From: Thioalkalivibrio sp. AKL19 | GTDB taxonomy: Bacteria > Pseudomonadota > Gammaproteobacteria > Ectothiorhodospirales > Ectothiorhodospiraceae | Direction of reading: 5' to 3' | Length of the DNA stretch: 64,000 bases | NCBI RefSeq assembly: GCF_000420165.1 | Contig: NZ_ATUK01000016.1 | Location: 62,001 to 126,000 of the forward strand | Shown: piece by piece, positions 49,470-63,443 of the stretch | Position numbering within the stretch: the first letter of the stretch is position 1 | Layout of the letters: every line of letters begins with the position of its first letter | The notes under the pieces: generated by a model | The model's database searches: none | Seen by the model: the letters and a program-made list of their open reading frames with translations, nothing else | Told to the model about the DNA's origin: nothing | Position numbers and translations under genes: made by a program

Positions 49470-52400
49470 TCACGTCTTTGAAACGAGATGGAGTTCGACA
49501 TGATGCTCCTGGTGGTCGTCCACCAATGGGATGCGTGAATCCGGGCACTCGGCACCGTCCACCGTCATGCGGGTCGCCTGACCTTCGCGTTCCGCGGTCG
49601 GCCGGATGGTGATGTGGTAGACCGTCTCGCGGTAGCGATAGTGGATGCGGTAGGCGTCCCAGTCCGCGGGGACGCAGGGCGCGATGCGCAGATGGTCGGC
49701 TTCCAGGTGCAGGCCCAGCAGGGTCTCGACCGACAGCCGGTACATCCAGCCGGCCGCCCCGGTGTACCAGGTCCAGCCGCCGCGGCCGGTGTGCGGTGGG
49801 GCGCCGTAGATATCCGCGCACATCACGTAGGGCTCGACCCGGTAGCGTTCGATGGCCTCCGGGGTACTGCCCTGGTGAATGGGATTGAGCATGGCGAAGA
49901 ACTCCCAGGCGCGTTCCGTGTCGCCCATCCTGGCGAACGCCATCGTGGTCCAGATGGCGGCATGGGTGTACTGGCCGCCGTTTTCGCGCACACCGGGTAT
50001 ATAGCCCTTGATGTACCCCGGTTCCAGGTCGGAATGGTCGAAGGGCGGGTCGAGCAGCTGGATGATCCGCGCGTCGCGTCGCACCAGGCGCGTGTCCACC
50101 GCCGCCATGGCCTGGCGGGCGCGCAGCGGGTCGCCAGCCCCGGAGAGGATCGCCCAGCTCTGGCTGATCGAATCGATCTGGCATTCCTCGTTGCTGGACG
50201 AACCCAGCGGAGTCCCATTGTCGAACCAGGCGCGCCGGTACCAGGCACCATCCCAGGCTTCGGCTTCGATGTTGTCGCGAAGTGCTTCGCCCTGCGCGGT
50301 GCACAACTCGGCAAAGTCCGCGTCGCCGTACTTGCGCGCGAGGTCGGCGAATCGCTCGAGATTCTCGAACAGGAACCACGCGAGCCATACGCTCTCGCCC
50401 TTGCCCTCGTTGCCGACCAGATTCATGCTGTCGTTCCAGTCGCCGCAACCCATCAGCGGCAGGTGGTGCGCGCCGAAACGCAGTCCGTGCCGGAGGGCGC
50501 GCACGCAGTGTTCATAGAGGCTGGCCGATTCCGACGAGGTCTGCGGCTGGTCGTAGTAGGCCTCCTCGTCCGCATGGAGTTCGCGGCCTTCCAGGAACGC
50601 GATGGACTCGTCGAGAACGCCGGTGTCCCCGGTGGCTGCCACGTAACGACAGGCGGCATAGGGCAGCCACAGGTAGTCGTCGGAGAACCGGGTGCGCACG
50701 CCCTGGCCGTAGGGCGGGTGCCACCAGTGCTGCACGTCGCCCTGCGGGAACTGGCGTCCGGCACAGCGAAGCAGCTGTTCGCGGGCCAGCCAGGGCGTGG
50801 CATGGACGAGCGCCATGGTGTCCTGCAACTGATCCCGGAACCCGTAGGCACCGCCGGACTGGTAATAGCCGCTGCGGCCCCACAGCCGGCACGATATCGT
50901 CTGATATACCAGCCAGCCGTTGGCCAGCACGTTCAGGGCGGGGTCGGGCGTGTCCACATGCACCGCGCCCAGCGTGTGATTCCAGTATTCCCAGACCGCT
51001 TCGAGTGCGTGGCGCGCGCCGGCGCGGCCGCCGAATCGCTGGATGTACTGGCGCGCCTCGTCGGCGTTGGCGGCCGCACCGAACACGAACACGATCTCTT
51101 GTTCCTCTCCTGCAGCCAGTTCGATCCGGGTCTGGAGCGCGGCGCACGGGTCGAGGCCGGGCCCGGTCTTGCCGGACAGCCGCTTACGGCGCATCGCCTC
51201 CGGGCTGGCCAGCGAGCGGTTGCGGCCAATGAATTCGTTGCGACTCCCGCTGATCCAGCGCTCGCGTCCGCCAACATGGGCAAACACCACCCGGTTGGCG
51301 CATTCGCGGCCGTAGGCATTGCGGGCCAGCAGCGCCCCGGTTTGCGCATCGGCTTCGGTGACGATGTGCATCATGTTCGCGTGCCGCCACTCGCCGAGCA
51401 CCAGTTCCCAGTACCCGGTCAGCGACAGGCTGCGTGGCCGCTGCGATGTGTTGCTCAGTTTGACCCGCACGATCTTCACCGGAGCGTCCATGGCGACGTA
51501 GGTATGCAGCTCCGAGGCGATCTCCGATTCGGCGTGCTCGAACACGCTGTAGCCAAACCCGTGCCGGCATACGTAGCCGGATTGGCCGCGGGCGGGCAGC
51601 GGCGTGGGTGACCAGAATATCCCGGTCTCCTCGTCGCGGATGTAGAAGGCCTCGCCGCTGGCGTCGGAGAGCGGATCGTTGTGCCAGGTGGTGAGGCGGA
51701 ACTCGTGCGCGTTCTCGACCCAGGTGTAGGCACTGCCGCTCTCGCTGACGACCGTGCCAATGTGGGGGCTGGCGATGACGTTGACCCACGGCGCCGGGGT
51801 CGTCTGGCCGGGCTCCAGGGTGACCACGTATTCATGCCCGTCGGGGGTGAAGCCGCCCAGCCCGTTGCTGAATACCCGCTCGCGTGACGCCAGCGGATGA
51901 ACCGCCTCGGGGCTGGCGGGCTTGGCGGGTTCCAGGAGGTCGGAGGCACGCGTTGCAGTCACGCGCCGGTCCACCGATCGGCCCGGCTTCGAGCGGCGCC
52001 GATCCACCGATCGTCCCTTGTTCGAGACCCGCCGATCCAGCGACTTGGCCGACAGCCTCCGGTCCATCTCTTCGCTCAGGGTCTTGGCCGTGTCGCTGAA
52101 GACGATCCGCGCCACCGTCTGCAGCAGGACCCGTTCGTCCTCGGTCAGTTCTTCGGCACGCCGTACGAAGACGCCGCCGGGGTGGTCGACGACCTGCGCC
52201 TCGGGGCCGGCGTGGATCAGCCCCATGATTTGATCCTGGAGCAGGGCGCGGTAGCCGGAGAAGTCCTCGTTCACGATCACCAGGTCCGCGGCCAGGCCCT
52301 TCAGACGCCAGTAGGTGTGGGCCTGCAGGATCTGTCTGACCAGGCCGATGCGATCCAGGTTGCGGATGTGCAACAGGACAATGGGCAGGTCCCCCGAGAT

Positions 52401-55400
52401 GCCGAAGCGCCACAGCCCGGACTGGCCCAGCCGGTTGCGCGCGATGGTGGCGGGGTCGGTGCGGCGCAGGGCGTTGCCGAAGACGACGGAACTGGCCAGG
52501 CGACCGAAGAGCTGGGCATCGACTTCGGTGGCATTGATGTGGCGCAGCACCTCCTGGCTCTGGAACCAGGCCATCTCGAATGCCCGCTCGACAAAGTAGC
52601 GGTCGCAATACTTCTCCAGCACGGCGAGTGCGACGTCGCGGGTGTCCACGGCCCCGGAGATGATCTGCACGCTGGCCGACTCGTCGGGCGCCAGGGTCAG
52701 GGTGCGGCGGATCGCCACCACGGGGTCGAGCACCGGCCCATCCGTATTGGAAAGGGTCGCCTCGCTGTCCGGCTTGTCGAGCACCAGCGGGTTGGCGGCG
52801 CTGCGCCCGCGGCCGATGAAGCGGGCACGGTCGGTCTCGTAGGAGGGTTCGTCGGTTGTCGCACCCGGGGCCGCCATCAGGTGGAACATCCAGGGCGGCT
52901 GTTCGCCCGGCGTGCGCGGGCGCCGCGTGCAGAGGATCGCCTGGCGCTCCGGCAGGATCTCGGTCTGCACGAACAGATTGCTGAACGAGCGGTGCGCGAG
53001 GTCGTTGTTCAACGGCGCCAGCACCACCTCCGCGTAGCTGGTCACCTCGATGTGGCGGGTACTGGACGACTGGTTGGTGAGGGTGACGCGGCGGATCTCG
53101 ACATCGTCCTCGGGCGCGACACAGATCTCGGTGTGGGCCTCGATCGCGTGGTCGCGGCGGCGGTATTCCGCCCGCCCCTGGACGAAGATCGCCTCGTAGT
53201 GGTCGGCGGGGCGCAGGGTGGGCTGGTGGGCCGTCGACCAGTAGGTGCCGCTGTCGCGGTCGCGCAGGTAGATAAACGTGCCCCAGCCATCGGTAGTGGC
53301 ATCCTCGCGCCAGCGGGTGACAGCGAGGTCGCGCCAGCGGCTGGCGCTGCCGCCGGCATGCGTCGCCACGACGTGGTAACGCCCGTTCGACAGCAGATGA
53401 ACCTCGGGCATCGGCGTGTCCGGGTCGGTGAACACGCGCATGATCGAACCGGTGTCCGCGCCGGAGGGGCGAGCGGCGGCACTGACCTCCGCAGCGTGCG
53501 GGTGCACGGTGGCGCCCTTCTTTGGCACCCGTTCCTGGAGCAGCAATTCGGTCGCCCGCACCAGCGGATCGGACATGAAACGGCGCTGCATTGGCTGGTC
53601 GAGCAGGACATGGGCAAAGGCGAGCAGGCTCATGCCCTGGTGATGCGCCATGAAGGAGCGGACAACGGCATGCGGATTGCCGTGCGGCACCCGGGTCGCC
53701 GTATAGTCGATCGCCTCGTAGAACCCGTAGGCGCCGAGGAATCCCTGATCCGCCAGGTTCTGGAGGTTACGGCAGGCGTCCTGCGGTGCCACGGTCAGGG
53801 CCAGGGCGCTGGCGTAGGGTGCGATCACCAGGTCATCGCCCAGCCCCCGCTTGAGCCCGAGGCCGGGAACGCCGAAGGCGCGGTACTGGTACACCTGATG
53901 GAGATCCGTGGCGCTGTAACAGGACTCGGATATACCCCAGGGCACTGCCCGTTGACGGCCGTATTCGATCTGCCGCGCCACGGCCGCCTTGCCGGTCTGG
54001 TCCAGCAGGGTATGGGTGTAGCTCGGCATGATGAGCTGCGGCATCAGGTATTCGAACATCGAGCCGCTCCACGAGATCAGGCTGACGTCCCCTCCATGGC
54101 GGGTCAGCAGGCGGCCGAGCGTGAACCAGTGCTTCTGCGGCACCTGCCCCTGCGCGATGAGCAGGAAACTGGCCAGACGGGCCTCCGATGCCAGCAGGTC
54201 GTAGCAGGATGGGTCACGCCGACGTTCGGTCACGTCATAGCCGATGGCCAGCAGGTCGCGCGGCACGTCGTAGAGAAATTCGAAATCCATCGTCGCCAGT
54301 GCGCCGCAACGACCGATCAGGTCGTCGATGCGGTCGATCTGTTCCCGGGCGGCGCCACCTCCGGAATCCGCCCGGGCCAGTTCCGCCACTGTGGGGAGGC
54401 CGTTGTCCGGCCACGTGGCGGGAACCAGCGTTGCGAACGCTTCCTGAAGGGCCTGGGCCTGGCGCTGGAATGCCTGCGTCCAGGCCTCCAGTTCAGGGTC
54501 GATTTCGGTACCTGGCGACGGCTCCTCGAGGAGCATGCCTCCGAGGCGGTGAAGCTCGCCGAGCGCACGGGTGGCGGCCTCCAGGGTCTGCGGGGGGCCG
54601 TTCAGTATCAGGGTGCGCAGGGTCTCCTGCAGCCGGCCGACGGTTTTCGTCAACTCGGGCGCGGAAGCAGGGGGCAAGTGTTCGGCGAGCACCTCCAGGG
54701 TGTCCTGTAGGCCCTGCCACGCGTTCGCAGTCAGAATCGGCTGGTGCTTCAGTTCCTCCAGGCCGGCTTGCAGGGTCAGCAGGCTGCCGGCCAGGTTGCC
54801 GCTGTCCACGGTCGATACGTATTGCGGCTGGAGGGGTTGCAGCGTGCGGGTGTCGTACCAGTTGTAGAAATGCCCGCGGTAGCGTTCCAGCTGCTCCATC
54901 GAGCCCAGGGTATTGCCGATGCGCTCCAGGCATTCCCCGGTCGTGAGATAGCCGAAATCGACCGCCGCCAGATCGGCCAGTAACGCCATGCCCATGTTGG
55001 TCGGCGAGGTTCGCGTGGCGATGGCCGGGGCAGGGGATTCCTGAAAATTGTCGGGTGGGAGCCAGTGGTCTTCGGGGCCGACGAAGTCCAGGAAGTAACG
55101 CCAGGTGCGTCGGGCCACGGCCCGCAGGAAGGCCCGCTGATCGGCGCTCAGGTCCGGAGTGGAAACGCTCAGCGGCCGGCTGATCCACCAGCCGATCACC
55201 GGCGAGACCAGCCACAGCAGCAGGATCGGGGCGGCGGCAAGCCAGACCGCCGCCGGGCTGCCGGTCAGGGCCAGTAGCACGCCCAGCACGACGGCAAGGC
55301 CGGGTGCGCTCGCCATCTCCCGGAAAAAGCCGGCCGGCGTCTGGAGGGCATTGCGGCGCGCGTACGAAGGCAGGTACCACAGCAGCAGACCGCTGCGCGT

Positions 55401-58247
55401 GTACAACATGCGGATGCCCGAGTGCAGGATCGCACCCACGCTGATCCGCGCGTCGTAGGGCAGGAAGGCCAGGGTCAGCAGGGCGAGCAGCAGCGGCCGG
55501 CCGGTCGACCGTCCGGTCAGGTTCAAGTGTGGCGCCCAGTCGCGTCCGGTGGGCTTGTCGATCAGCTCGATGATGCTGGACAGCAGGGTGGGCAGGAGCA
55601 CCACGGCCACGACCAGCAGGGTCCACAGCCACGCCGGTCCCAGCAGCCAGCCCCCTGCAAGCAGGAGCACCAGCGCGGGCGCGACCAGGCTGCGCCGCAG
55701 GTTGTCGAACAGTTTCCAGCGCGACAGGGCCGAGAGCGGGTTCGGCTGGCGCGGTCCCATGGATCCGTCCGGGCCGGGCGGCCCCGGTACCCGCGGGCGC
55801 AGCCAGCCTGCCAGTTGCCAGTCACCGCGTATCCAGCGGTGGCGCCGACTGGCGTCGATGGCAACACTGGCCGGGTGTTCCTCGATCAGTTCGATATCGG
55901 TCACCAGGGCCGACCGCGCATAGCCACTTTCGAGCAGGTCGTGACTGAGGATGAGATTTTCCGGAAAGCGTCCGTCGACGGCCTGGCGGAACGCATCCAC
56001 GTCGTAGATCCCCTTGCCGATAAATGAGCCTTCGCAGAAGACATCCTGGTAGACGTCCGACACTTCGCGGGTATACGGGTCGAGGCCGGACTCACCGGCA
56101 AACAACCGGCTGAAGTGCGACTGCTCGGCGCTGGTCAGGCTGATCGTCGCGCGTGGCTGGAGGATCGCATAGCCCTCCACCACGCGGCCCTTGTCGGGGT
56201 CGTAGACCGGGCGGTTGAGCGGATGCGCCAGATTGCCGATCAGGGCGCGGGCGGCGTCGCGCGGTAGCTGTGTATCGGTATCCAGGGTGATGACATACTG
56301 GATCGACGCGAGCACGGACGGATCGCCAACAAGATCGGAGAAGGCGGTCAGGGCTTCGCCTCGCAGCCGCGCATTGAACTGCTCCAGCTTGCCGCGCTTG
56401 CGCTCGTGGCCCATCCAACACTGCTCGAACGGATTCCACACCCGGGGCCGGTGGAACAAGTAAAAGATGCAGGGACGGTCGTCGCTGTAGGTCTGGTTGA
56501 GTTGTTCGACTGCACTGCGCGCATGGGCGAGCAGGGCCTCATCCCCGGGCATGGTTTGTTCGGGCGCGTCGCGGAAGTCCGTCAGCAGGGCGAAAAACAG
56601 GTTGGGATCGCGATTCCCGAGATAGCGGATCTCCATGGCTTCGAGTAGATCATCGACGTCCTGCGGACTTCCCAGCAGGGTGGGTACGACCACCATGGTT
56701 CGGTGGCAGTCGGGGATCCCGTGGGAAAAATCCATGCGGGGCAAGGCCCGTGGTGGCAGAACGCGCGTGTACAGCAGGTTTACCAGGGCGATCGCCAGCG
56801 CCGAGGCGGCGATCAAGAGCGGAAGCGCAAGCAGCCAGTTCCATCCGGAACCGGCGCCGAAGAGGCCACCAAGGGCTGCCGCACCCCCTGCGATGAGGAG
56901 CGTGAGCAACCCAATGGGCCCCAGATACAGGGGCAGGCTGTGTTCCCGGAACACCCCGCGGATGCGGGATCTCCACGAGGGCCGGTAGCCCACTGCATGC
57001 TCCAGGTCCGGACGTCCCCGGTCGCCCAGGTAGTAGCCCACATGCACACCGCGGTCGCGGTGGTTCCGGTGAGTGGCTGCCGCTTGCGCCAGACCGATGG
57101 CTTCGTGCGCGACGCTCGGTTCGCTGCGACCGCTGTGGCGCGCCACTTCCTCGATGACGTGGCGGTACCGGTCGCGGGTCGCGAAGTCCTGGCCGGCGTA
57201 GCTGCCCATTGGATCCTCGCTCAGGATCCGTTCCACCACGCTGAGTGACTCGACATACTGCTTCCAGTCCATCGAGGAGATGAAACGCAGGCTGCCGATG
57301 CAGTTGGCGATGGAAATCTGGTTGGCTGCCGCCGTGCGTCCATACGCCTCGGACAACCCGGTAGTGGTGACCCCCTGTTCCTGCAACCGTTGCTCGACCC
57401 AGGTCTGCACGAAGGCCATGGACGGCCCCTGCGCCTGGAGCCGGCCGTAAAACTCCTCCACGAACGGCGCCGTCAACGGGACGTCGGCACTGGCAAACTC
57501 GGCCAGCAACTGGATCAGCTGCGCGGGTTCGCGTTCGGCGGCCATGAGCATGCGGTCCGCCCAGGTAATGGCCGCGTCACGCTCCACGCGGCGCTGGGCG
57601 ATGCGTACCCCGACGCGGCGCAGGTTCTCCAGCAAGGCCAGCTGGAGCATAATCGGGAACGCCCACAGCTCACCCAGTTTCAGGGGCTCGACGGTCTGAT
57701 AGGCGGCGATCAACTCGGTGGCGTTGTCGCGATCGACCCGGCCATCCATGTGCGAGATCAGTCCCAGCGCCAGGTCGTAGATGCGCGGGAAGCCCGCCGA
57801 CGGGCCATCGGCCAGGTGCGGCAGCTGCCGGCTGTAGCCGTCGGGCAGATGGCGTCGTGCCATCGCGATCTGCTGCTCGATCAGGTAGAAGTTGTCGAGC
57901 AGCCACGCCTCGTCCGGCACGATTCGCTGGCCCGGTACTTCGGCACGGGTCGCGGTGATGACGTCGTAGGCCGCGATCAGGACCCGTTCATTGTCCGCCA
58001 GCCGCGGCAGCAGCCGGTCCGGCCCGGGGCGGGAATCGATACGGTGCTGCTCGGCCAGCGTGACCGCATGCCGCTTGAGCTGCTCGACGCTCAGGAGTTC
58101 CGAACGCAGCAACTCGGTGTCGCGGTCGTGGCGAAGCGCCTCGCGCGTACGCGAGGAAGATCCAAACGCCTTGATATCGATGACCCTCTCCTTGTCCGAA
58201 CGCAGGTGGGTCTGGTCTGGACTGGCCGACCCGTCGTGGACACCCAT
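49470..58247 (-). CDS. cgs: Cyclic beta-1,2-glucan synthase (NdvB/Cgs type)
   Basis: 2,925 residues, a giant inner-membrane enzyme that builds and cyclises periplasmic beta-1,2-glucans, an osmotic protectant. Order: a helical N-terminal region (1-430); two membrane helices (about 432-496); the GT84 glucosyltransferase (about 500-830) with NARLRG preceded by CWMGHERKRGKLEQF, ITLDTDTQLPRD and RHRWIRGDWQ; further membrane helices (about 850-1020); a glycoamylase-like domain (about 1045-1560); and two GH94 phosphorylase-like parts. The last GH94 part holds the catalytic-type motif GCGDWNDSMN near residue 2603 and sets chain length. Residues 2061-2099 are an unusual DRR-rich repeat. The ATG at 58247 has a weak ribosome-binding site. 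A strong AAGGAGAGG lies about 60 bases downstream. Confidence 0.93.
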   Translation of the reverse strand: MGVHDGSASPDQTHLRSDKERVIDIKAFGSSSRTREALRHDRDTELLRSELLSVEQLKRHAVTLAEQHRIDSRPGPDRLLPRLADNERVLIAAYDVITATRAEVPGQRIVPDEAWLLDNFYLIEQQIAMARRHLPDGYSRQLPHLADGPSAGFPRIYDLALGLISHMDGRVDRDNATELIAAYQTVEPLKLGELWAFPIMLQLALLENLRRVGVRIAQRRVERDAAITWADRMLMAAEREPAQLIQLLAEFASADVPLTAPFVEEFYGRLQAQGPSMAFVQTWVEQRLQEQGVTTTGLSEAYGRTAAANQISIANCIGSLRFISSMDWKQYVESLSVVERILSEDPMGSYAGQDFATRDRYRHVIEEVARHSGRSEPSVAHEAIGLAQAAATHRNHRDRGVHVGYYLGDRGRPDLEHAVGYRPSWRSRIRGVFREHSLPLYLGPIGLLTLLIAGGAAALGGLFGAGSGWNWLLALPLLIAASALAIALVNLLYTRVLPPRALPRMDFSHGIPDCHRTMVVVPTLLGSPQDVDDLLEAMEIRYLGNRDPNLFFALLTDFRDAPEQTMPGDEALLAHARSAVEQLNQTYSDDRPCIFYLFHRPRVWNPFEQCWMGHERKRGKLEQFNARLRGEALTAFSDLVGDPSVLASIQYVITLDTDTQLPRDAARALIGNLAHPLNRPVYDPDKGRVVEGYAILQPRATISLTSAEQSHFSRLFAGESGLDPYTREVSDVYQDVFCEGSFIGKGIYDVDAFRQAVDGRFPENLILSHDLLESGYARSALVTDIELIEEHPASVAIDASRRHRWIRGDWQLAGWLRPRVPGPPGPDGSMGPRQPNPLSALSRWKLFDNLRRSLVAPALVLLLAGGWLLGPAWLWTLLVVAVVLLPTLLSSIIELIDKPTGRDWAPHLNLTGRSTGRPLLLALLTLAFLPYDARISVGAILHSGIRMLYTRSGLLLWYLPSYARRNALQTPAGFFREMASAPGLAVVLGVLLALTGSPAAVWLAAAPILLLWLVSPVIGWWISRPLSVSTPDLSADQRAFLRAVARRTWRYFLDFVGPEDHWLPPDNFQESPAPAIATRTSPTNMGMALLADLAAVDFGYLTTGECLERIGNTLGSMEQLERYRGHFYNWYDTRTLQPLQPQYVSTVDSGNLAGSLLTLQAGLEELKHQPILTANAWQGLQDTLEVLAEHLPPASAPELTKTVGRLQETLRTLILNGPPQTLEAATRALGELHRLGGMLLEEPSPGTEIDPELEAWTQAFQRQAQALQEAFATLVPATWPDNGLPTVAELARADSGGGAAREQIDRIDDLIGRCGALATMDFEFLYDVPRDLLAIGYDVTERRRDPSCYDLLASEARLASFLLIAQGQVPQKHWFTLGRLLTRHGGDVSLISWSGSMFEYLMPQLIMPSYTHTLLDQTGKAAVARQIEYGRQRAVPWGISESCYSATDLHQVYQYRAFGVPGLGLKRGLGDDLVIAPYASALALTVAPQDACRNLQNLADQGFLGAYGFYEAIDYTATRVPHGNPHAVVRSFMAHHQGMSLLAFAHVLLDQPMQRRFMSDPLVRATELLLQERVPKKGATVHPHAAEVSAAARPSGADTGSIMRVFTDPDTPMPEVHLLSNGRYHVVATHAGGSASRWRDLAVTRWREDATTDGWGTFIYLRDRDSGTYWSTAHQPTLRPADHYEAIFVQGRAEYRRRDHAIEAHTEICVAPEDDVEIRRVTLTNQSSSTRHIEVTSYAEVVLAPLNNDLAHRSFSNLFVQTEILPERQAILCTRRPRTPGEQPPWMFHLMAAPGATTDEPSYETDRARFIGRGRSAANPLVLDKPDSEATLSNTDGPVLDPVVAIRRTLTLAPDESASVQIISGAVDTRDVALAVLEKYCDRYFVERAFEMAWFQSQEVLRHINATEVDAQLFGRLASSVVFGNALRRTDPATIARNRLGQSGLWRFGISGDLPIVLLHIRNLDRIGLVRQILQAHTYWRLKGLAADLVIVNEDFSGYRALLQDQIMGLIHAGPEAQVVDHPGGVFVRRAEELTEDERVLLQTVARIVFSDTAKTLSEEMDRRLSAKSLDRRVSNKGRSVDRRRSKPGRSVDRRVTATRASDLLEPAKPASPEAVHPLASRERVFSNGLGGFTPDGHEYVVTLEPGQTTPAPWVNVIASPHIGTVVSESGSAYTWVENAHEFRLTTWHNDPLSDASGEAFYIRDEETGIFWSPTPLPARGQSGYVCRHGFGYSVFEHAESEIASELHTYVAMDAPVKIVRVKLSNTSQRPRSLSLTGYWELVLGEWRHANMMHIVTEADAQTGALLARNAYGRECANRVVFAHVGGRERWISGSRNEFIGRNRSLASPEAMRRKRLSGKTGPGLDPCAALQTRIELAAGEEQEIVFVFGAAANADEARQYIQRFGGRAGARHALEAVWEYWNHTLGAVHVDTPDPALNVLANGWLVYQTISCRLWGRSGYYQSGGAYGFRDQLQDTMALVHATPWLAREQLLRCAGRQFPQGDVQHWWHPPYGQGVRTRFSDDYLWLPYAACRYVAATGDTGVLDESIAFLEGRELHADEEAYYDQPQTSSESASLYEHCVRALRHGLRFGAHHLPLMGCGDWNDSMNLVGNEGKGESVWLAWFLFENLERFADLARKYGDADFAELCTAQGEALRDNIEAEAWDGAWYRRAWFDNGTPLGSSSNEECQIDSISQSWAILSGAGDPLRARQAMAAVDTRLVRRDARIIQLLDPPFDHSDLEPGYIKGYIPGVRENGGQYTHAAIWTTMAFARMGDTERAWEFFAMLNPIHQGSTPEAIERYRVEPYVMCADIYGAPPHTGRGGWTWYTGAAGWMYRLSVETLLGLHLEADHLRIAPCVPADWDAYRIHYRYRETVYHITIRPTAEREGQATRMTVDGAECPDSRIPLVDDHQEHHVELHLVSKT
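51960..52070 (-). repeat. 33-base tandem repeat inside cgs
   Basis: About three and a half units of 33 bases coding for SxDRRxSxxGR-like units (SLDRRVSNKGR, SVDRRRSKPGR, SVDRRVTATRA). It lies in a linker between the two GH94-type regions. Confidence 0.75.
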
Positions 58248-58916
58248 TTCAGGATTGCACTTGGAACGCCTCCCGTATGTTCGCTAGCACACCGTCGCTC
58301 TGCGCTACATGTGGCTTATCGAGAGCGGGGGACGCCGGCCGGGCCCGGAACAAGAGGCATGCCGGGATGACCACAGGCGGGTGGTCGCCGCGTTCAGGGA
58401 CCTGATTCGCAAGGAGGGTCAGCCGGTCACGGGGAGCGTCCGGGGGCATAAATAGCCCGCCGCGGGTCGCCTTGCGCCGTGCCTTTCTGGAATCGATCCA
58501 TCCTCGGCCCTTGCCCCTGGACTGTCGTCCTGGCCAGAGCGAAGCGAGGAGCCGGGAGCTCCCCCGTCGCGACAACCTCGGTCGCCGAGATCCTGGATCA
58601 CCGCAACGCGGTTTCCGGGATGACGAAGCAGGAGGTGTGTGGAGCCCCAAGGCGCGTGCCGCTGCGCTCCAGGGGCACTTTCGGCCGCCGGGTGCAGTAC
58701 ACGCCGGGCCCGCACGGTCCTTGGGCCTGGCTGACCCTCGTGGCTAATCGGGTTCAGGAATGGGGTGGGCCCTCGTGGGGAGATCGCGGCTGCGGTGGCG
58801 CGGAAGGCGTCCCTTCGGCGTCGGGTGCAGGATGGGCCTGGACCGTTTGCAAACCTTCAGCGCAGGCGGGTGATCCGGCTGGACTGCCTTTCACGCGGCG
58901 CGCAACGCGCTGAGCG
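58248..58916. other. Gene-free 669-base region upstream of cgs
   Basis: Holds repeat B copy 1 (58506-58751) and, nearer cgs, a short inverted relative of its end (CTGATTCGCAAGGAGGGTCA at 58401). No coding sequence, promoter or T-rich terminator could be supported. Confidence 0.5.
58506..58751 (+). repeat. Dispersed repeat B, copy 1
   Basis: About 246 bases that align, in inverted orientation, with 62843-63083. Shared landmarks are AGAGCGAAGCGAGGAGCCGG (with one mismatch), CGGTTTCCGGGATGACGA, CCGCTGCGCTCCAGG, TTCGGCCGCCGGG and TGACCCTCGTGGC. It lies 165 bases after the end of the Kai operon. Confidence 0.85.
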
Positions 58917-60959
58917 CTATCGCGGCGCGGAGTCGGTAAGATCCGGGAGGGAAAACGGATGTTGCAGGAGTGCGGGGATCGCCTCCGGCTGGACCGGTCG
59001 GCTGAAGAAATACCCCTGAATTTCATCGCAACAATGACAGTGGCGCAAAAAAGCGACCTGCTCTGCGGTTTCGACGCCTTCCGCGACGACGCGAAACCCC
59101 AGTTTCTGGCCTAGCAGGGCAATCGAGGTCACGATTTCGGCCCCTGCCATCTGTTCGTCATCGCTGGAGATGTCGTCGACGAAGCTCTTGTCGATCTTGA
59201 TTGTCTCGGCGGGCAGGCGACGCAGGTAGGTCAGCGAAGAATAGCCGGTGCCGAAGTCGTCCAGGGCGAGGCTGACGCCCAGTTCCCGAAGTGACTGCAA
59301 GACGGACTGCTCCTCCTGCGCCAGTGTCATCAGGGTGTTTTCGGTTACCTCCAACTCGAGCCGGTCAGCAGGCAGACCGGTCTCGTGCAACGTCTGTTGC
59401 ACGAATTCCGCAAGATCTTCTTTGCGAACCTGGGCGGGCGCCATGTTGACGGCAACCCGTTCGAAGTCCAGGCCGGCGTCCAGCCATTGCTTCGCCTGTT
59501 GGCACGCATGCACGAGGACCCAGCGTCCCAGGTCGTCGATCAGGCCGGACGTTTCTGCCACCGGGATAAACCGTGCCGGCGACAGCATGCCCTCGTCGGG
59601 ATGCTGCCAGCGCACGAGGGCCTCCATTCCGGTGACGCGGCCGTCGTGTACCGAAACCTTTGGCTGATACAAAAGCCGAAGTTCATTCTGGGTGATCGCC
59701 TGGCCCAGGCGCCCTGCCAGGAGCACGCTATCGCGGATAGCCAGGTCCAGGTCCTGAGTGAAGAGTTGATAGCCAACTCCGCCATCGGCCTTGACACGGT
59801 GCATGGCGACATCAGCCTCGCGCAGCATCTCACTGATCCCGTGCGAGCCGTGATGGCTGGAGACCGAAATCCCCAGGCTGCAACCCACCAGTACTTCAGC
59901 CCCGCTGACGTTAAACGGCTCGCTCAGGTTCTCTTGAATAGCCTCGGCAAACCCGACCGCGCGCAACGCGGCGCGGTCTCCGCGGAAAAGGACCCCGAAC
60001 TCGTCGCCGCCCATGCGCGCGAGCGTTTCATCCTCGTCAAGGTAGCCGCTGAGGCGCTCGGCGACCAGGCGGAGTATCTGGTCGCCAGTCTCCATGCCCA
60101 ACGTGCCGTTGATGATATTGAAGCGATCGACTCCGACCAGCGCAACGGCCGTGGCCCCATGTTTCGGTTCGTTCAGTGCCGCTTCCAGGCGGGAGCGAAA
60201 CAGCAGTCGGTTGGGAAGCTCGGTGAGGGCATCGTAATGGAGCAATTTTTCGATCTGCTCCTCGGTTTGCTTGACATGGGTGATGTCTGAAAACAACGCG
60301 ACGTAACGATCGACTTGCCCGACTTCATTGGTCAGCGCGTTGATCTCGAGAAGCTCGGGATAGATTTCGCCGTTCTTGCGTCGGTTCCACATCTCCCCCT
60401 TCCAGTGACCCTTTTCCTGCAAGACCGCCCACATGGATCGATAGAAGTCGGGCCCCTGGCGGCCGGATTTGAGTATTGTCGGGGTCTGGCCCAGCACTTC
60501 GTCACGGCTGTAACCGGTGATCCGCGAGAAGGCGGGGTTCAAATCGATGATGGTGCCGTCGGTGCGCGTGACCAGGACGGCCTCGCTTACCCCGAGAAAG
60601 ATCGCCTCGTAGAGCTGGAGGCGATTCTCTTCGCGCTTGTGTTCCGTGAGGTCGTGGAGAACCAGTGCCCAGGCCCCGGGTTCCCACCCCGTACTCGGGC
60701 CATCCAGCTTGATCGCGCGCGCTGCTACGGAGAGGGGTGTACCGCCCTTGGGGTTGGGCAGGCGCAATTCCGTTGTTCCCGCGCCGGCCCCGGCCAAACC
60801 GAACTCGCTTCCGACCAGCCCATCCGCAGTGCGGCCGAACAGGGACTCGGAGGCGGGATTGGCGTACAGAATCACTCCCTCTGCATCCAGGATCAGAACA
60901 CCGTTGGTGCATCGCTCGACCAGCCGGCGGAAGAGTTCAGGGGACAAGGTGTCAGCCAT
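58917..60959 (-). CDS. PAS-PAS-GGDEF-EAL protein of the Kai operon
   Basis: 680 residues, soluble. PAS 1 (about 8-115, VERCTNGVLILDAEGVILYA), PAS 2 (about 125-240, VSEAVLVTRTDGTIIDLNPA), GGDEF (about 250-410; ARMGGDEFGVLF intact) and EAL (about 420-665; MEALVRWQHP, VNMAPAQV, LEVTENTLM, LALDDFGTGYSSL, IKIDKSFV, VAEGVET). The residues for both c-di-GMP synthesis and breakdown are present. The RxxD inhibitory site is absent (DEDE in that place), so product inhibition is not expected. The ATG at 60959 overlaps the kaiB stop by 8 bases, a strong sign of coupled translation with kaiB and kaiC. Confidence 0.92.
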   Translation of the reverse strand: MADTLSPELFRRLVERCTNGVLILDAEGVILYANPASESLFGRTADGLVGSEFGLAGAGAGTTELRLPNPKGGTPLSVAARAIKLDGPSTGWEPGAWALVLHDLTEHKREENRLQLYEAIFLGVSEAVLVTRTDGTIIDLNPAFSRITGYSRDEVLGQTPTILKSGRQGPDFYRSMWAVLQEKGHWKGEMWNRRKNGEIYPELLEINALTNEVGQVDRYVALFSDITHVKQTEEQIEKLLHYDALTELPNRLLFRSRLEAALNEPKHGATAVALVGVDRFNIINGTLGMETGDQILRLVAERLSGYLDEDETLARMGGDEFGVLFRGDRAALRAVGFAEAIQENLSEPFNVSGAEVLVGCSLGISVSSHHGSHGISEMLREADVAMHRVKADGGVGYQLFTQDLDLAIRDSVLLAGRLGQAITQNELRLLYQPKVSVHDGRVTGMEALVRWQHPDEGMLSPARFIPVAETSGLIDDLGRWVLVHACQQAKQWLDAGLDFERVAVNMAPAQVRKEDLAEFVQQTLHETGLPADRLELEVTENTLMTLAQEEQSVLQSLRELGVSLALDDFGTGYSSLTYLRRLPAETIKIDKSFVDDISSDDEQMAGAEIVTSIALLGQKLGFRVVAEGVETAEQVAFLRHCHCCDEIQGYFFSRPVQPEAIPALLQHPFSLPDLTDSAPR

Positions 60960-61230
60960 CACGCAGATCGAGGCCGATGAGGACCCGTTCACGGTCCGAG
61001 AGATCCCCCACCAGGCGACGAATCGGCACGGGCAGTCGGCGAATCAGCAGCGGGGTGGCCAGAATTCGTTCATCCTCCGCCAGTTGGGGGTTCTCGAGGA
61101 CGTCGATCACTTCCAGATCGATTTTGGGCTGGTCGGGAGCGCCTGACAGATCGGCGACGATCGCCTCCATGTTTTCGATGGCGCGGCGTGCCCCGGGGGT
61201 AAAGCCGGCAATGTACAGACGCAATAACAT
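60952..61230 (-). CDS. kaiB: KaiB clock-family protein
   Basis: 92 residues. LLRLYIAGFTPGARRAIENM at the start, then EVIDVLENPQLAEDERILAT, PLLIRRLPVPIRRLVGDLSD and REKV-like RERVLIGLDL match cyanobacterial KaiB nearly throughout, including the fold-switch region. KaiB binds the KaiC CI ring in the cyanobacterial clock. The ATG at 61230 is listed. A TTG at 61239 would overlap the kaiC stop. It sits between kaiC and the PAS-GGDEF-EAL gene with overlapping or near-touching ends. Confidence 0.93.
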   Translation of the reverse strand: MLLRLYIAGFTPGARRAIENMEAIVADLSGAPDQPKIDLEVIDVLENPQLAEDERILATPLLIRRLPVPIRRLVGDLSDRERVLIGLDLRDG

Positions 61231-61235
61231 CTCGA

Positions 61236-62693
61236 TCAATCGCCTCCCATCTTGGTTTGCACGCCGCCGGAGTTGTCGATCGTCACGCCGTCCGCCGACA
61301 ATTCAAATTCGCACACCCGATCTGAAGTCGGCAGGCCTCGAGCCTTGGCCAAGGTGATCCGGCGGTAGAGCCGGTTTGCCACCTCGTCGCGCCGCAGCTT
61401 GACCCAGACATCCAGCATCGACGAGACATTCAGACGGCTGGAGCTCTCGTGATCGTCCGTTAGAAGTTCCGTGGCCACGGTCGTGACGCCCTTTTCCTTC
61501 AGCAGGGAAAAGAGCCGGAGCAGCATTTCCGGGCCTTCGTCCATCGCGGTATTCCGTAGCAGTGCATTCACGGGGTCCAGGATCACGACGTCCGGGCCGT
61601 GGGCCTCGACGGTGCGTACCACCCGCAGCAAGTGTTCTTCCTGCCCCAGTTCGCTGGCCATCACCGGTTGCATCTGCAGGAGGGGCTGGTCGCCTTGGGT
61701 GAAGGGTTCGAGGTCTAGCCCGACACTGCGCTGGTTGCGCAACAGCTCCGCCGCGCCTTCCTCGAAGCTGAGCACCAGCACCCGGCGTCCCGCAGCGCAA
61801 GCCGCCCCGGCAAACGCGGCTGCAAAGGTCGTCTTGCCGGTGCCGGAGGGTCCGGAAAACATCAGCGCCGAGCCGAGATAGGGGCCGGAACCGCCCAACA
61901 TGGCATCCAGCCCGCTGATACCGGTAGAAATATGTTCCGAAGATGGCTCCCGTCCCAGGCGCCAGCGCGTTACCGGGGCCGCGTAAAAACCTTGCTCGTC
62001 GATCAGATAGGGAAACGCGTTGCTGTCGTGAGGGTGTCCGCGGCGCTTCACCACACGCAGGAGGCGGGTCATCCGGCGGTTGCTGAGCGCCTGCTCCAGA
62101 TGGATCACGCAGTCCGCAATGTAGTCCTCGATATAGACATCCATGCCCTCGCTTCGATTCGACTGAGAGTTTCCGCAGCCGGCGGTGAGGATGGTGGTCA
62201 CACCCCGTTCGCGGATCCAGTCGAACACCCGTACCAGTTGCGACCGCAAGGAGACCGCGGATACCCCGCCGAAATCCAGCGCCTGCAGGGCATCCACCGC
62301 ATCCACCATCATGTGCTGTGCCCCCGTTACCTGGAGTGCGTGTTCGAGGCGCGCCAGGATCACGGATAAATCCAGGTCGCCCCCGGAATGGTCTTCCGAA
62401 TGATCAGGTCGCAGATCCACGATCCGAAGGCGCCCATCAGCCAGTCCCGAATCGAGATCCAGACCCAGGCTGCGCGCATGCAACTTCAGGGAGTCGGGTG
62501 ATTCGTCACAGGTTGCGAGTACGGCTCCGTGGCCGCTTTGCAGCACAGAGGTGAGGAAGGTCGTCGCGAGGACGGTCTTGCCAGTGCCGGGTCCGCCGCG
62601 GACGAGCGTAGGGCGGCGGGCGGGGATGCCCCCTTGCAGAACGAAATCAAGACCTTCAACACCGGTCGCCACAGTGCTCGGTTCTTCTTCCAT
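61236..62693 (-). CDS. kaiC: KaiC double-domain ATPase
   Basis: 485 residues with two RecA-like domains. CI: Walker A GGPGTGKT (33-40), catalytic acidic pair Asp63-Glu64, Walker B in MMVDAVDAL. CII: Walker A GPSGTGKT (281-288), Glu311-Glu312, Walker B VVILDPVNALL. The positions of the autophosphorylated Ser431/Thr432 of Synechococcus KaiC correspond to Ser424-Ser425 here (NVSSMLDVW), a Ser-Ser version. The protein ends about 34 residues sooner than cyanobacterial KaiC, so the KaiA-binding tail is missing, in line with no kaiA. ATG at 62693 with GAGG upstream. First gene of the operon. Confidence 0.93.
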   Translation of the reverse strand: MEEEPSTVATGVEGLDFVLQGGIPARRPTLVRGGPGTGKTVLATTFLTSVLQSGHGAVLATCDESPDSLKLHARSLGLDLDSGLADGRLRIVDLRPDHSEDHSGGDLDLSVILARLEHALQVTGAQHMMVDAVDALQALDFGGVSAVSLRSQLVRVFDWIRERGVTTILTAGCGNSQSNRSEGMDVYIEDYIADCVIHLEQALSNRRMTRLLRVVKRRGHPHDSNAFPYLIDEQGFYAAPVTRWRLGREPSSEHISTGISGLDAMLGGSGPYLGSALMFSGPSGTGKTTFAAAFAGAACAAGRRVLVLSFEEGAAELLRNQRSVGLDLEPFTQGDQPLLQMQPVMASELGQEEHLLRVVRTVEAHGPDVVILDPVNALLRNTAMDEGPEMLLRLFSLLKEKGVTTVATELLTDDHESSSRLNVSSMLDVWVKLRRDEVANRLYRRITLAKARGLPTSDRVCEFELSADGVTIDNSGGVQTKMGGD

Positions 62694-62842: not shown

Positions 62843-63083
62843 TGATTGGCCACGAGGGTCAAGCCAGGTTCAGGGACCGTGTGGTCCCGGGTGTGTACAG
62901 CCCCCGGCGGCCGAAGGTGGTCCTGGAGCGCAGCGGTACCCGCCCCAGGGCTCCACGCGCCTCCTTCGTCGTCATCCCGGAAACCGCCTAGCGGTGACCC
63001 GGGAGCCCGGGGGCCTTGGTTGCCCCGTCGGCGGAGCCCCCGGCTCCTCGCTTCGCTCCGGCCGGAATGACAGGGCAGGGGCC
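62843..63083 (-). repeat. Dispersed repeat B, copy 2 (inverted relative to copy 1)
   Basis: 241 bases, inverted copy of 58506-58751. It begins CTGATTGGCCACGAGGGTCA and ends with CGGAATGACAGGGCAGGGGC. With copy 1 it brackets the kaiC-kaiB-GGDEF/EAL operon. No terminal CTAG or transposase is present. Confidence 0.85.
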
Positions 63084-63139: not shown

Positions 63140-63443
63140 CTAGGGAGACGCTGATTTAATCGCGCGTTCGCGTTGGTGCCCCCTGTTTCCCGAGCCAAGG
63201 CGCGTCGCGCAGCGGGTAGTGGTTCTACCCGCAAGTGGCGCAACGCAGGATCGGGGAACAGGGGGCCCTAACCCGACAAATCATTGAAAGAGCGGGCTCG
63301 GCCGCCCGTTATTGATCAAAAACGGGCGCGCGAACAGCGTTGCGGTTCCCTTGTGCAGAGTGACTGCACGGCAGTCACCACGCCTTGTTCGCACGCAAAA
63401 GCGACTCGAGCGCGAACGCGCGATTAAATCAGCGTCTCCCTAG
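63140..63443. repeat. Palindromic element A, copy 4
   Basis: 304 bases with CTAG at both ends. The outer arms are perfect over 33 bases (CTAGGGAGACGCTGATTTAA, then TCGCGCGTTCGCG). This sequence differs at many positions from copies 2 and 3. Inner arms GTTGGTGCCCCCTGTT / AACAGGGGGCCCTAAC enclose GCGGGTAG-TGGTT-CTACCCGC. Its right CTAG is the apparent target of the IS481-family element that follows. Confidence 0.92.

Follow-up and report, generated by a model that had tools for sequence, protein, structure and literature searches.

The window analysed here, a stretch of 64,000 nucleotides from Thioalkalivibrio sp. AKL19, carries homologs of KaiC and KaiB, the two oldest parts of the known protein clock, next to a gene for a c-di-GMP turnover enzyme. 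All three genes are encoded on the minus strand, a point absent from the earlier note on this DNA. The kaiC gene (61236-62693) encodes a protein of 485 amino acids with CI and CII ATPase domains. It is followed by kaiB (60952-61230), which most likely starts at the ATG at 61230-61228 and then encodes 92 amino acids, while an alternative TTG start at 61239 is also open and would give 95; a GGAGG motif at 61243-61247 (minus strand), 12 nt before the ATG, reads as the probable kaiB ribosome-binding site. The third gene (58917-60959, minus strand) encodes a PAS-PAS-GGDEF-EAL protein of 680 amino acids from the ATG at 60959, the longest frame running from a GTG at 60992 (691 amino acids). Its first PAS domain spans approximately 60648-60959 and the second 60270-60614 (both by Pfam), followed by the GGDEF domain (59781-60239) and the EAL domain (58995-59711). 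The stop codon of kaiC (61236) and the ATG of kaiB are separated by 5 bases, and kaiB overlaps the GGDEF-EAL gene by 8 bases, in agreement with the earlier note, which had described the genes as overlapping or nearly touching. Judged from this spacing, kaiC, kaiB and the GGDEF-EAL gene are predicted to be co-transcribed; a promoter scan found nothing.

The domain assignments are supported by Pfam matches to KaiC/ATPase (E-value 3e-79), KaiB (3e-21), GGDEF (1e-32) and EAL (7e-71), and the PAS domains were also matched. KaiC passes the cut-off of NCBIfam NF006799 (417 bits, cut-off 408) and falls below that of TIGR02655, and KaiB lies above the Pfam cut-off and below the NCBIfam clock-KaiB cut-offs (93 vs 110 bits). 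The host genome (2.88 Mb, 99.9% complete) has one full kaiC and one kaiB. No KaiA was detected anywhere in it by a search that was positive in the Synechococcus elongatus control.

Both P-loops of KaiC (Walker A motifs starting at residues 33 and 281) and the Walker B aspartates are intact, as is the catalytic pair of the CII domain, Glu311-Glu312. The corresponding CI pair is Asp63-Glu64 instead of Glu-Glu, a variant that the earlier note did not mention and that is shared with the sister clade. The earlier note had reported a Ser-Ser pair at the phosphorylation site, and the pair was located at Ser424-Ser425. Adjacent serines are the norm for KaiC2 (PMC5520375), and the protein combines them with two fused KaiC ATPase domains that retain both P-loops. 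In a KaiC tree built from a set without verified cyanobacterial KaiC1, KaiC2 or KaiC3 references, it falls on the side of the KaiC of Rhodobacter (Cereibacter) sphaeroides.

The C-terminus of this KaiC is short. The protein ends just 13 residues after the last aligned strand, vs 92 in the sister KaiCs and 95-110 in most relatives on its side of the tree, which bears out the earlier statement that the KaiA-binding tail is missing. The coiled-coil tail of KaiA-less KaiCs is missing too, which had escaped the earlier note. Since kaiB starts 5 bases past the kaiC stop, there is no space for a frameshifted tail. A connection between loss of the coil and linkage to a GGDEF-EAL gene was considered and rejected, because many linked KaiCs retain the tail. 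Neither KaiA nor a KaiA-binding tail, the hallmarks of a self-sustained KaiABC clock, is present here; with the coiled coil also lacking, a simple switch or hourglass is more likely than a self-sustained clock.

The nearest relatives do not have the operon, and their collinearity with the window stops at 58299: G040 (96% DNA identity) and G023 (88%) follow the window up to this point, which lies 5' of a GH94-type glucan synthase gene, and KaiB is absent from both. Beyond the breakpoint G040 has a gene, apparently for a PAS-histidine-kinase-receiver protein, with no counterpart in the window genome. Synteny does break off here, but the operon did not simply insert into an empty site, since the window genome lacks the far flank seen in both relatives; the segment was instead replaced or rearranged. 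Two copies of a dispersed repeat of 196 bp, inverted relative to each other and 81% alike, flank the operon at 58513-58708 and 62887-63082, and six strong copies of it occur in the host genome. Among 30 genomes of the genus, the window's is the only one with this type of kaiBC. The glucan-synthase-like gene (49470-58247, minus strand) encodes a GH94-type, cyclic-glucan-synthase-like protein of 2925 amino acids whose N-terminal part occurs in just 4 of the 30 genus genomes. On the other side, an IS481-type transposase extends from 63440 to the window end, close to the contig end, beside perfect 33-bp inverted repeats (63140-63172 and 63411-63443).

For comparison, about 100 kaiC loci were collected from the window's family, from class and phylum draws, from named genome contigs and from plasmids; the class and phylum draws were picked by KaiC or KaiB only, blind to neighbouring genes. 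A single-protein scan recovered no KaiC relatives in genome contigs, so an alignment-based search was required; in phage records no relative was found. The order and partner genes of kai clusters vary widely, and many loci carry histidine kinase genes. The 54 loci from genome draws include 14 with a GGDEF-EAL gene in the cluster and nine with a GGDEF-only gene. These 23 loci compare with 2.9 expected from flanking DNA, an enrichment of about 8-fold with a p of ~1e-14 that serves only as a guide, because the draws are not strictly random and related genomes are not independent. Besides the window, the order kaiC-kaiB-GGDEF/EAL was found at six loci (L059, L061, L064, L071, L164, L181), whereas in half of the linked loci the GGDEF-EAL gene lies upstream of the kai pair (L056, L060, L068, L073, L074, L177, L178). 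A kaiB is present at L059, L061 and L062; at L066 (genome G111) the KaiB frame adjoining kaiC contains an internal stop. The search for such triplets had been suggested in the earlier note, which counted an order unique to this strain against its own reading. The order is not unique, as it recurs in other lineages; conservation does not extend to the window's own family, where the closest kaiC-kaiB operons are without a c-di-GMP gene.

Phylogenetic analysis suggests how the association came about. The window KaiC is sister to KaiCs of a sister genus (SH-aLRT 96-98), whose operons consist of kaiC-kaiB only. The GGDEF-EAL protein, in a quick tree, clusters with enzymes from its own family that lie outside kai loci (SH-aLRT 92). 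A single clade was rejected for all linked GGDEF-EAL proteins (AU p 0.005), for all linked KaiCs (AU p 3e-5) and for the downstream-linked KaiCs only (1e-10); the trees come from fast searches and contain some long branches, and they were inspected before the AU tests, which makes these p-values somewhat optimistic. With a single origin rejected on both sides, the phylogenies argue that linkage between kaiBC and c-di-GMP enzymes arose several separate times. As the nearest operons of the same family carry no c-di-GMP gene, the GGDEF-EAL partner in the window was probably acquired by recruiting a local enzyme and is not part of a conserved triplet.

In the GGDEF-EAL protein of the window, the GGDEF motif and the metal- and substrate-binding residues of the EAL domain proved intact and the RxxD inhibitory site absent, just as the earlier note had read them. 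All 14 kai-linked GGDEF-EAL proteins keep their EAL catalytic residues, whereas four of them, mutually related, have a degenerate GGDEF motif (GADQF, GADQF, DADHF and GADHF). This points to phosphodiesterase as the retained activity of such proteins. A branch of KaiCs, mostly linked to GGDEF-EAL genes, departs from the Glu-Glu pair in CII (DE, DS or SS instead) and has P-loops of forms like GxPGTAKT (L056, L059, L060, L061, L068, L071, L072, L073, L074, L078, L136, L182). The alterations suggest that some kai units may not depend on a normal CII kinase; the window KaiC lies outside this branch.

On these grounds we give about an even chance to the proposal that the operon encodes a KaiA-less, KaiC2-type KaiBC switch with a c-di-GMP turnover enzyme as its output. 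The three proteins would be made from one shared message. KaiC would form a hexamer, both ATPase and autokinase, that responds to ATP/ADP and can be phosphorylated on two serines; KaiB would bind it in a state-dependent manner and accelerate its reset. Depending on the state of KaiC and KaiB, the PAS-GGDEF-EAL protein would be switched, most probably in its phosphodiesterase activity. The energy or stress state sensed by KaiBC might in this way set the c-di-GMP level and thereby the choice between motile and attached life. We infer the cycling of the KaiC kinase, the binding of KaiB, a contact with the GGDEF-EAL protein, be it physical or functional, and the net direction of that enzyme. The proposal is consistent with the intact motifs, the absence of KaiA, a closest solved relative that is itself KaiA-less, the enrichment of c-di-GMP genes, their repeated linkage, the retention of the EAL residues in all 14 linked proteins and an influence of c-di-GMP levels on the Kai clock of S. 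elongatus (PMC13001216). The KaiA-free c-di-GMP switch proposed in the earlier note fits the anatomy of the locus and is strengthened by the same gene order in other lineages; within the window's own family the triplet is not conserved. Several observations weigh against an output role: the nearest KaiB-KaiC pairs lack a linked c-di-GMP gene, no KaiB-like or KaiC-like docking domain was found in ten linked GGDEF-EAL/GGDEF proteins scanned, and, as the host genome has about 20 proteins that strongly match this enzyme, a single one of them may have little global effect. In Legionella, moreover, KaiB and KaiC reportedly did not interact.

The lack of a docking domain would suit a stress or starvation operon in which KaiBC and the GGDEF-EAL protein are co-expressed and act separately. 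The Legionella kai operon is said to be under RpoS control. It has also been cited as involved in the stress response (PMC5520375), and the widely varying order and partners of kai clusters also favour shared regulation only. That the neighbour of kai genes is often a signalling enzyme, with c-di-GMP enzymes enriched about 8-fold, makes us consider this explanation unlikely. The direction of control might also be reversed, with the PAS domains responding to redox or some other cue and KaiC being adjusted through the c-di-GMP that the protein makes or degrades. Two N-terminal PAS domains, the upstream position of the gene in half of the linked loci and the recent finding that changing c-di-GMP shifts the period and phase of the S. 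elongatus clock (PMC13001216, 2026) all agree with an input role, which we nevertheless hold to be quite improbable, since histidine kinases at this position tend to be interpreted as outputs or partners. We do not know of any c-di-GMP-binding site in KaiC or KaiB, which also counts against it.

The genomic setting also suggests a further reading. The occurrence of this kaiBC type in a single genus genome, the break in synteny, the inverted repeats with the nearby transposase and the long branch of the window KaiC could be those of a passenger in a variable, repeat-bounded segment, with little function in the strain. Three open frames with intact catalytic residues and tight spacing make this very unlikely in our view. 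A bolder version of the switch with a c-di-GMP output, in which KaiBC units took on c-di-GMP enzymes as dedicated, directly contacted outputs in repeated, independent events and the coil-less KaiC evolved here together with its partner, is tentative and we lean against it. If it were true, simple bacterial timers would in general have c-di-GMP as a second output alongside histidine kinases. Repeated separate linkage makes c-di-GMP a good candidate output for simple KaiBC timers and fits the 2026 report on S. elongatus. It also makes the role of KaiBC outside cyanobacteria a testable question, as the neighbour, gained in several lineages, has a measurable product. A literature search covering few subscription papers found no paper testing a KaiBC-c-di-GMP operon.

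Among known systems, the operon found in the sister genus (G001-G006, G009, G010), made up of kaiC and kaiB only, is nearest in sequence, with 50-53% identity in KaiC and 63-69% in KaiB. It shares the CI Asp-Glu variant and differs in the long tail of its KaiC and in the missing c-di-GMP gene; at one locus, the gene after kaiB is a glutamate-cysteine ligase by Pfam. The operon of Legionella pneumophila reportedly also has kaiB and kaiC with a third co-transcribed gene; its KaiB is Lpp1115 (PDB 4KUN). The closest PDB relative of the window KaiC is the KaiA-less KaiC of R. sphaeroides (PDB 8DBA, 8DB3, 8FWJ), about 38% identical, likewise with a Ser-Ser pair and with kaiB directly downstream, for which an hourglass mechanism has been published (PMC10076222). 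There a C-terminal coiled coil joins two hexamers into a dodecamer (PMC10076222) and an HWE histidine kinase lies downstream, both of which are missing here, so that the window shares with that hourglass the kaiB adjoining kaiC without kaiA and not the double hexamer. A coil-less truncation of the R. sphaeroides protein still phosphorylated at a similar rate (PMC10076222), although it was cut at residue 490 and has a longer A-loop than the window KaiC. The closest match in gene context is the 'orange group' of De Luca et al. (2011; PMC3164672), in which a gene for a histidine kinase or a GGDEF/EAL protein comes after kaiC-kaiB and the phosphosites are ST or SS. The window agrees with it in gene order, with the GGDEF/EAL gene immediately 3' of kaiB on the same strand, and in the PAS-GGDEF-EAL partner, the Ser-Ser site and the non-cyanobacterial host. 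The context is therefore already on record and not new, and the contrast drawn in the earlier note, with histidine kinases as the usual neighbours and c-di-GMP as the novelty, had been described before. That work listed contexts only; what is added here is the evidence for repeated recruitment of c-di-GMP enzymes and a KaiC without the coiled-coil tail.
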